Below are positions 26,409 to 28,176 of a stretch of 64,000 bases of DNA, one piece after another. Origin of the DNA: Halobellus clavatus (lineage in GTDB: Archaea > Halobacteriota > Halobacteria > Halobacteriales > Haloferacaceae); NCBI RefSeq assembly GCF_900107195.1, contig NZ_FNPB01000001.1, positions 620,001 to 684,000 on the forward strand. The letters are read 5' to 3'. Each line of letters starts with the position of its first letter. Positions within the stretch are counted from its first letter, which is position 1. The translations under genes and the position numbers were made by a program. A model generated the notes under the pieces. It was given only the letters and a program-made list of their open reading frames with translations. It did not search any database and had not been told where the DNA came from.

Positions 26409-26455
26409 CTTTCGAGAGTTCGGGTCAGTCCGGATCGAAACCTTCGAATCGAAAG
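26409..26455. promoter_or_regulatory. Candidate copper-responsive element in the copA promoter
   Basis: CTTTCG at 26409-26414 and CGAAAG at 26450-26455 frame a 47-bp region 41-87 bp upstream of the copA ATG. The right arm TTCGAATCGAAAG (26443-26455) matches the right arm of the perfect repeat in the regulator/chaperone promoter at 11 of 13 positions, and the outer spacing (47 versus 51 bp) is close. The left arm matches only at its outer six bases. Function is inferred from this resemblance. Confidence 0.45.
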
Positions 26456-26482
26456 CCGATCGCGATTTTCGTTCAGCCGTGT

Positions 26483-27076
26483 TCAATCCGCGCCCGCCTC
26501 GAACTGCTCGTAGCGGTCGCGGAACTGCGCCAGACACGATGGGCAACAGAAGTGGTACTGCTCGCCGTCGAACCGCTCGCTGCGGCCTTCGCTCGTGACG
26601 GTGTTGCCGCACTCCGCACACGAGAGCGCGAACTCCGCGCCGCCGACGGCGGGGCTCCACTCAACGTCGCCGACGACGGTCACCGCGTAGTCGTCGATCC
26701 GCGAGAGGTCCACCAGTCCGTCGAGTTGCTCGCGGACGGCGTCGGCGCGCAGTCGCGCGTGGAAGACGACGTCACCCTCGGCGGTGACGAAGACGTGCTC
26801 TGTCGGTTCGGCGGCGACGACGTCCTCGCGGACGGCGTCGACGGCGTCGGACGGGACGTCGAGCGTCACGAGCACGGGCACGCCCGCACGGAGTTGTGAG
26901 CGGTCGACGTCGACGGTGAAACGCCGGATGACGCCGGATTCGCGCAACCGTTCGACCCGGTCTGAGACCGCCGGCGGCGAGAGGTCGACGCGCTCTGCGA
27001 TGTCGCTGAACGGGCGGCGGCCGTTTTCCACCAGGAGTTCGAGGATCTGTACGTCCGTCTCGTCGAGAGAGGCCAT
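26483..27076 (-). CDS. Lrp/AsnC-family regulator with C-terminal TRASH metal-sensing domain
   Basis: 197 residues. An AsnC-type winged helix (LDETDVQILELLVENGRRPF, then LSPPAVSDRVERLRESGVI) is followed by a ligand-binding-like middle. The C-terminal TRASH domain begins at CAECGNTV and continues with FCCPSCLAQFRDRYEQF. TRASH cysteines bind Cu or other soft metals. In Halobacterium salinarum a protein of this architecture (VNG1179C) is required for the copper response of the P-type ATPase yvgX. Its position between copA and the chaperone supports the same role here. The ATG at 27074-27076 was chosen. Confidence 0.92.
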   Translation of the reverse strand: MASLDETDVQILELLVENGRRPFSDIAERVDLSPPAVSDRVERLRESGVIRRFTVDVDRSQLRAGVPVLVTLDVPSDAVDAVREDVVAAEPTEHVFVTAEGDVVFHARLRADAVREQLDGLVDLSRIDDYAVTVVGDVEWSPAVGGAEFALSCAECGNTVTSEGRSERFDGEQYHFCCPSCLAQFRDRYEQFEAGAD

Positions 27077-27119
27077 ACCGGCCGGACGGTCCGTACTCGG
27101 AAGGAATTTTCCCATATCG

Positions 27120-27170
27120 CTTTCGTTTCCAAAGCGTTTCAGCGCGAGATCCTCATCTTGGAAACGAAAG
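27120..27170. promoter_or_regulatory. 13-bp perfect inverted repeat (copper operator candidate)
   Basis: CTTTCGTTTCCAA at 27120-27132 and its exact reverse complement TTGGAAACGAAAG at 27158-27170 are separated by 25 bp. They lie in the 127-bp region between the divergent TRASH regulator (start 27076) and the HMA chaperone (start 27204). The arms are placed roughly symmetrically, 43 and 33 bp from the two start codons, so one bound complex could control both promoters. Confidence 0.75.
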
Positions 27171-27203
27171 TCGGCCAAAGAGAGCGGCCCGTCTATCGAA
27201 ACG

Positions 27204-27401
27204 ATGACGCAGACGATCACCGTCGAAGGAATGAGTTGCGGACACTGCGAGCAGACCGTCGAAGACGCCCTGGCGTCGGTGCCGGGCGTCGAGTCCGCGC
27301 CGGCCGATCGCGGGACCGAATCGGCGACCATCGAGGGCGGGGCCGCCCTCGAGGACCTGCTCACGGCCGTCGACGACGCGGGCTACGACGCGTCTGTGTA
27401 G
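27204..27401 (+). CDS. HMA-domain copper metallochaperone
   Basis: 65 residues, a single heavy-metal-associated domain. The metal loop is GMSCGHCEQTV (Cys12 and Cys15) with the typical beta-alpha-beta pattern VEDALASVPGVESA. It is a CopZ-like Cu(I) carrier that would deliver copper to the HMA domains of CopA. It is transcribed divergently from the TRASH regulator across the inverted repeat. The acidic substitutions (ESAPADRGTESAT) are expected for a halophile. Confidence 0.93.
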   Translation: MTQTITVEGMSCGHCEQTVEDALASVPGVESAPADRGTESATIEGGAALEDLLTAVDDAGYDASV

Positions 27402-27438
27402 CGGGACAGCGACGCCAACCGGGCTGGCGGAGCGCAGG

Positions 27439-27837
27439 TCACTCGTCTTCGAGGCGCTCGTACTCCTCGTCGGAGCGGTCACCGCGCGCGTACGCGTCCC
27501 GTAACTCCTGAGCCGGGTCAGTCGCGCCCGCCGCCACGCCGTCAGTGCTGAGTGCGCGATAGAGGAGGTAGCCACCCCCGACGATCACCCCGAGGACCAG
27601 GACGCGCCACAGTGCGGCGAGCAGGAGCCACCAGCCACCCGTGCCCGTCCGGCTCATCGTGCCGTCCATCATCGGGATGCTGTGCATCGGCCCCACCATC
27701 CCGCCGGTCCCGCTCGTCATCCCGCCCCAGGCCATCGTGCCGCCACCTGCACCGAGCAGGAGTGGGGCAAACAGGACCAGCGCACCGAGTGCGACGAGGC
27801 CACCGACGACCCAACGCGAGGAGTACTGTTGTTGCAT
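27439..27837 (-). CDS. Met-rich SHOCT-domain membrane protein
   Basis: 132 residues. Two transmembrane segments lie at about 9-31 and 72-91. Between them is a Met- and Gly-rich exposed loop, GGTMAWGGMTSGTGGMVGPM then HSIPMMDGTMSRTG, with nine Met and one His. The C-terminus DPAQELRDAYARGDRSDEEY is a SHOCT domain (short C-terminal oligomerisation domain). Met-rich loops are common Cu(I) ligands, and the gene is convergent with the copper chaperone, so a copper-related role is plausible but unproven. The start was set at the ATG at 27835-27837. Confidence 0.8.
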   Translation of the reverse strand: MQQQYSSRWVVGGLVALGALVLFAPLLLGAGGGTMAWGGMTSGTGGMVGPMHSIPMMDGTMSRTGTGGWWLLLAALWRVLVLGVIVGGGYLLYRALSTDGVAAGATDPAQELRDAYARGDRSDEEYERLEDE

Positions 27838-28176
27838 CGGACTCACCACTAGAAGAAACGGGGCCCTCACTTACTTCCATTTCCACTTCGATACCGTGAG
27901 TTTCTGCGCGCCGGATCGTTTGATTCGAAAGTGCTGGGTCGCTGCGACGATTCCTCCTGAACAGGCGTCAGAAGCGGCCGCTTGCTCTCGGGGGCGAGGT
28001 CGCTCCAGGAGACCGATCCCGCCTCAGCGGTGTTTTCGGGGTCCATCGCGGGGTCACTCAGGTCGCCCCCGGTTCTCGACGCTGTCTCGACGGGATGGAC
28101 AGCGCGCGCGACGAAGACCGGGGGCGACGGCTTCGAGCGGCAGTGAGACGAGCAGCGCGGCCCGAACCGGGCGGGG
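27838..28176. other. Intergenic region upstream of the SHOCT gene
   Basis: 339 bp with no convincing gene; the short frames here are Arg-rich shadows. TTTGATTCGAAAG at 27919-27931 matches the right arm of the copper inverted repeat at 10 of 13 positions, about 82 bp upstream of the SHOCT start codon. Nothing else was recognised. Confidence 0.4.

Follow-up and report, generated by a model that had tools for sequence, protein, structure and literature searches.

The closest described counterparts of the locus studied here are two archaeal copper regulons governed by TRASH-Lrp proteins. In Pyrococcus furiosus, CopR is described in the sections of PMC7830388 drawn on here as an octameric protein that binds a 15-bp semi-palindrome upstream of the BRE, activating copA and repressing copR. 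In Halobacterium salinarum, yvgX, VNG0702H and VNG2581H are reported to be copper-induced and regulated by VNG1179C (PMC3551603, available portion), and the VNG1179C motif has been published as a logo (PMC4236453, Fig. 1B); eight Lrp paralogues are counted in this species in the same paper. More generally, archaeal Lrp sites lie two or three helical turns apart, as stated in the part of PMC2995911 used here. A literature search at listing level returned no stated sequence of a haloarchaeal copper box, which is no proof of absence, and the excerpt of PMC9240420 holds nothing on such a box.

We analysed a 64-kb stretch of the Halobellus clavatus genome (the window), which resembles P. furiosus in having a TRASH-Lrp regulator next to a divergent copper gene, and in a 15-bp semi-palindromic motif with a W centre placed upstream of the promoter (PMC7830388, same sections). 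However, the divergent gene is copA in P. furiosus and a chaperone here, copA following the regulator on the same strand; the motif reads TTNNCAWWWTGNNAA there and CTTTsGAwTCsAAAG here, the half-sites differing, among other things, in SG here against CA there; and the P. furiosus site lies directly next to the BRE, whereas the dyad centre here is ~34 bp upstream of a BRE-like element of the copA and HMA genes, the dyad being close to the promoter of the regulator. The haloarchaeal box would work like the cop box without carrying the Pyrococcus sequence. With the H. salinarum VNG1179C/yvgX regulon the locus shares a TRASH-Lrp regulator and, as targets, copA and HMA chaperones (PMC3551603, available portion). 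The same dyad as in the window is present in the yvgX promoter, but the H. salinarum pump and second chaperone do not lie in one divergent cluster. Presumably, the regulator gene of that species also lies outside any single divergent cluster with the two. Archaeal Lrp multi-site regions are similar in their clustered short semi-palindromes, bound there by dimers or higher oligomers, yet their arrays are spaced by two or three turns, as compared with 36 bp here and 31-32 bp in several relatives (PMC2995911, in part).

The regulator, its neighbours and the repeat between them

The initial annotation had described a perfect 13-bp inverted repeat, with arms 25 bp apart, inside a 127-bp promoter common to a TRASH-Lrp regulator and an HMA chaperone, and both statements hold. 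Arm 1, CTTTCGTTTCCAA (27120-27132), and arm 2, its exact complement (27158-27170), are 13 nt each, 100% complementary and separated by a 25-nt spacer. They lie in the gap (27077-27203) between the regulator ATG at 27076 on the minus strand and the HMA ATG at 27204 on the plus strand (Table 1).

Table 1. Genes, repeat and dyads of the copper locus, in window positions
Feature	Positions	Strand	Evidence
copA, copper P1B ATPase, 909 aa	23639..26368	-	TIGR01511 ATPase-IB1_Cu, over cut-off
copA promoter box, CCTTCGAATCGAAAG	26441..26455	.	23.4 bits, best PWM site of the window
TRASH-Lrp (CopR-type) regulator, 197 aa	26483..27076	-	Pfam HTH_AsnC-type and TRASH_HVO_1752_C
Perfect 13-bp inverted repeat	27120..27170	.	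only in this genome among 46 non-redundant promoters
Box 1, CTTTCGTTTCCAAAG (left arm plus AG)	27120..27134	.	22.4 bits, second best PWM site
Box 2, weaker dyad TCTTGGAAACGAAAG (right arm plus TC)	27156..27170	.	16.8 bits, fourth best
HMA copper chaperone, 65 aa	27204..27401	+	Pfam HMA, 2.6e-16
Met-rich, probable membrane protein, 132 aa, SHOCT-like tail by eye	27439..27837	-	homologues adjoin copper genes
Met-rich gene box, CGTTTGATTCGAAAG	27917..27931	.	18.8 bits, third best

The regulator combines an AsnC-type HTH (PF13404, 2.4e-16) with a TRASH domain (PF24273, 3.8e-25, over cut-off). Its residues C153, C156, C177, C178 and C181 are invariant in 16 sequences, and its closest named relatives are from Halobellus. 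A Pfam search to E 0.01 yielded no RAM/AsnC_trans_reg match (PF01037), a domain common to Lrp proteins in general that we do not require of a CopR-type protein; in VNG1179C, too, it is called likely non-functional (PMC4236453, excerpt). The best NCBIfam match of the chaperone is CopZ_AFE_1862, below its cut-off. For the Met-rich protein, NCBIfam gave no match to 0.1 and Pfam only GvpG at E 0.11.

When the 127-bp gap was dinucleotide-shuffled 2000 times, a perfect arm of at least 13 nt arose once. The window contains no other such arm with a span of up to 60, and one of four shuffled whole 64-kb windows also held one; at this scale the repeat is only moderately surprising. A pattern search allowing 20-30 nt between the arms found it once in the whole genome. 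An RNA hairpin was dropped without folding, because the repeat is upstream of both start codons.

A 15-bp dyad in haloarchaeal copper promoters

Separate EM motif searches of regulator (n=95) and copA (n=54) promoters revealed one and the same 15-bp dyad, CTTTsGAwTCsAAAG, with log-likelihoods of 564.6 and 516.1, respectively, versus 79-91 for shuffles. These promoters derive from 110 regulator loci, that is, 30 loci plus 80 picked by hand down the match list and together a part of the regulator matches found, after removal of sequences more than 85% alike (regulator, 110 to 95; copA, 66 to 54; HMA, 60 to 46). The four best sites of the window, scanned with the merged and symmetrised PWM, all map inside 26441-27931, the fifth reaching only 13.6 bits; window scores are slightly favoured by the presence of its own promoters in the training sets. 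Box 1 is centred 51 bp from the start codon of the regulator gene and 77 bp from that of the HMA gene; the centre of box 2 is 36 bp further on, 41 bp from the HMA ATG; and the copA and Met-rich gene boxes are centred 80 and 87 bp upstream of their respective ATGs. Genome-wide, 25 places fit CTTTSGWWWCSAAAG with at most two mismatches, versus 7 for the reversed pattern, and box 1 is the only exact match. None of the 21 near-matches outside the cluster exceeds 16.6 bits, all of them scoring below the four cluster sites; 12 fall inside predicted coding ORFs, and for the other nine no gene emerged from a filter that required a GC3-type ORF either spanning the site or beginning no more than 200 bp away. 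Among control promoters near the loci, 3/121 scored at least 10 bits, 1/121 at least 15 and 0/121 at least 18.

Of 170 genomes in the family, 162 match the regulator, and its TRASH family is matched in 232 of the 243 in the order; copA is downstream of the regulator in 70 of 110 loci. Conservation at orthologous copper loci, which the initial annotation had named as decisive for the wide repeat, is a property of the dyad instead: a dyad of at least 10 bits precedes the regulator in 59 of the 60 loci with a divergent HMA chaperone, whereas the wide perfect repeat is seen, among 46 non-redundant orthologous promoters, only in that of the window, the next longest perfect arm being 9. The dyad, not the wide repeat, is the conserved unit, and the tempting reading of long perfect arms as the recognition unit is hereby corrected. 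Dyads of this strength are also found upstream of the regulator in 10/14 loci with copA and no chaperone, and in 10/36 with neither neighbour. Autoregulation does not seem universal, because the remaining 26 of these 36 regulators have no box of at least 10 bits. Named loci gave a dyad in 69 of 79 regulator promoters, a figure that includes 19 loci of one near-identical cassette (18 aligned, the 19th by score only); with this cassette reduced to one representative the hand count is 51/61.

The copA promoters behave alike. At least 10 bits were scored by 53 of 54 non-redundant sequences, mostly with the dyad 77-82 bp before the ATG, and by 23 of 24 promoters from 19 genomes mostly chosen for a regulator away from copA; in this second set the L293 box is far off position, and the single miss, L291, is a match starting late in the protein. 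The divergent chaperone gap is kept at 126-134 bp (46 non-redundant promoters, 60 loci). In 36/46 promoters the strong dyad lies 76-80 bp ahead of the chaperone start codon (slot 1), and in 10/46 the distance is 47-49 bp (slot 2). The slot-2 loci (L046, L048, L051, L057, L063, L074, L080, L083, L091 and L097) have at best a weak slot-1 site, and may reflect a switch of operator slot between lineages.

Archaeal CopR boxes being already known, the additions here are the candidate haloarchaeal operator consensus, CTTTsGAwTCsAAAG, its fixed distance, the putative slot switch and the Met-rich gene. The consensus would supply a concrete operator sequence for copper regulators of a type present in nearly all haloarchaea examined, and would account for the chaperone and the pump being tied together at a fixed distance. 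The Met-rich protein, probably membrane-bound, is a likely new member of the copper regulon. Among its non-redundant homologues, window included, 8/14 have a dyad of at least 10 bits upstream, and in Halobellus and Natrinema loci the homologues have copper genes in their vicinity.

Dyads in Halobacterium salinarum

The genome that we take to be that of H. salinarum encodes a bacteriorhodopsin 100% identical over 249 aa to that of the species. Its copA (yvgX) promoter carries CTTTTGATTCGAAAG, a 24.7-bit dyad centred 78 bp upstream and one of three one-mismatch sites of that genome in a pattern search. A separate HMA gene, in our assumption VNG2581H, has two sites ahead of its likely ATG, one of 13.2 bits at ~47 bp and one of 8.6 bits at ~79 bp (hand-measured). 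The HMA gene adjoining copA, presumably VNG0702H, may use the copA promoter, since it starts ~65 bp after copA and a PWM scan found no strong site nearby. Four other genomes of the genus contain the dyad in five copA promoters (16.4-23.9 bits). Published responses bearing on the sense of autoregulation differ: the VNG1179C transcript is unchanged with copper (PMC3551603, available portion), whereas silver raises lrp, together with copA and copZ, in Haloferax alexandrinus (PMC10694973, in part).

Proposed operator architecture and competing readings

These data make it very probable that the repeat marks an operator at which the haloarchaeal CopR-type regulator acts, with a strong site and a weaker one. 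The initial annotation had proposed an operator of the TRASH regulator; as a conserved copper-regulon element, with this regulator by far the likeliest binder, the proposal survives, but the long-armed wide repeat as its unit does not. By analogy with P. furiosus CopR, a regulator dimer would recognise the 15-bp dyad, box 1 acting as the conserved high-affinity site at about the same distance from the chaperone ATG as in copA promoters, and box 2, on the chaperone core promoter, as a weaker copy perhaps contacted by another dimer of the same oligomer. Copper (or silver) on the TRASH domain would switch the DNA-bound protein, leading to more chaperone and copA transcription, the direction of control that we predict for Halobellus clavatus; for copA, copper dependence is proposed on the precedent of both H. 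salinarum and P. furiosus. The oligomer anchored on box 1 may assist TFB/TBP some three turns downstream, at the promoters of the chaperone and of copA, and, with box 1 just upstream of the promoter of the regulator, may also modulate the latter.

The strongest competitor concerns box 2. Box 1 could be the sole operator, the right arm being the BRE/TATA of the chaperone gene and resembling a dyad by chance, a reading to which we give somewhat less than even chances. Box 2 probably overlaps the predicted BRE/TATA of the HMA gene, and the same stretch of 36 aligned HMA promoters has the consensus CGAAGGGGAAA (GAA-N4-AAA; CGAAGgGgAAA); part of the dyad likeness of box 2 may be BRE likeness, because the box sits on this core-promoter element. 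Resemblance of the left half at 31-32 bp is also weak. However, the 16.8 bits of the right arm are matched by at most 1 of 121 control promoters (the one scoring at least 15), and its 13-mer has a probability of 2.5e-5 under a column model of that stretch of HMA promoters. In the stretch after box 1 of 36 HMA and 49 copA promoters (those of the 54 with a box 65-95 bp from the ATG), mean second-box scores lay far above those of dinucleotide shuffles, 0/100 of which reached them. In the spacing profile, right halves fall at 31-32 bp, left ones at 36-38 bp, and both stem from the same BRE-like element, which confounds comparison of these second-site spacings in relatives with the 36 bp between box centres in the window. 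A separate left-half test in relatives gave little signal beyond that element. A second box beyond the core promoter was rejected as a proven second operator, the signal being confounded by the BRE-like element.

That a higher oligomer grips both 13-bp arms as a symmetric pair, the wide repeat being one recognition unit, appears unlikely. Perfect symmetry at the shuffle frequency given above, the dyad scores of both arms (22.4 and 16.8 bits) and the strength of slot 1 or slot 2 in different lineages (36 and 10 of 46) are consistent with it, but the repeat is confined to one of 46 promoters with a next longest arm of 9, each arm is part of its own 15-bp dyad, and the 36-bp spacing is off helical phase. 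The 36 bp between box centres is ~3.4 turns as compared with the two or three reported (PMC2995911, in part), so that a single oligomer holding the two boxes from the same side of the helix is not self-evident, a point that also weighs against the favoured reading. A looser version, in which the divergent genes are separated by two dyads at a distance of 31-37 bp, one oligomer can anchor on either (slot 1 near the regulator, slot 2 on the core promoter of the chaperone) and lineages switch the strong slot, is a tentative proposal to which we attach perhaps one chance in a few; if true, both slots would be strong in Halobellus clavatus and might give stepwise control of the chaperone, activating and then blocking it.

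Recognition of the dyad by another regulator, or its being a general promoter element, is improbable. The operator assignment is made from sequence, and haloarchaea have other Lrp paralogues (eight in H. salinarum; PMC4236453, excerpt), yet only 3 of 121 control promoters reach 10 bits and the dyad tracks the regulator, chaperone and copA promoters, yvgX of H. salinarum being regulator-dependent (PMC3551603, available portion). Finally, a chance repeat without function is hardly credible: one of four shuffled windows did produce a comparable arm, but box 1 is conserved in sequence and place, which refutes chance for this box, while the perfect symmetry as such may still be accidental. The favoured reading is that of an operator of the CopR-type regulator with box 1 as its strong site.

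Two further observations concern individual loci. The copA promoter of one Halobellus locus (L013) includes a duplicated stretch of ~32 bp with box-like sequence. In the near-identical cassette (L149-L177), an 8.6-kb segment carrying the genes for regulator, chaperone and CopA (e.g., L154:1-8588) is 97.3-99.99% identical to L154 over 7.8-8.6 kb in 16 of 17 other loci; it spans many haloarchaeal genera and is found on named plasmids of several of them (9 records cover at least 80%), a distribution suggestive of a recently spread copper cassette.
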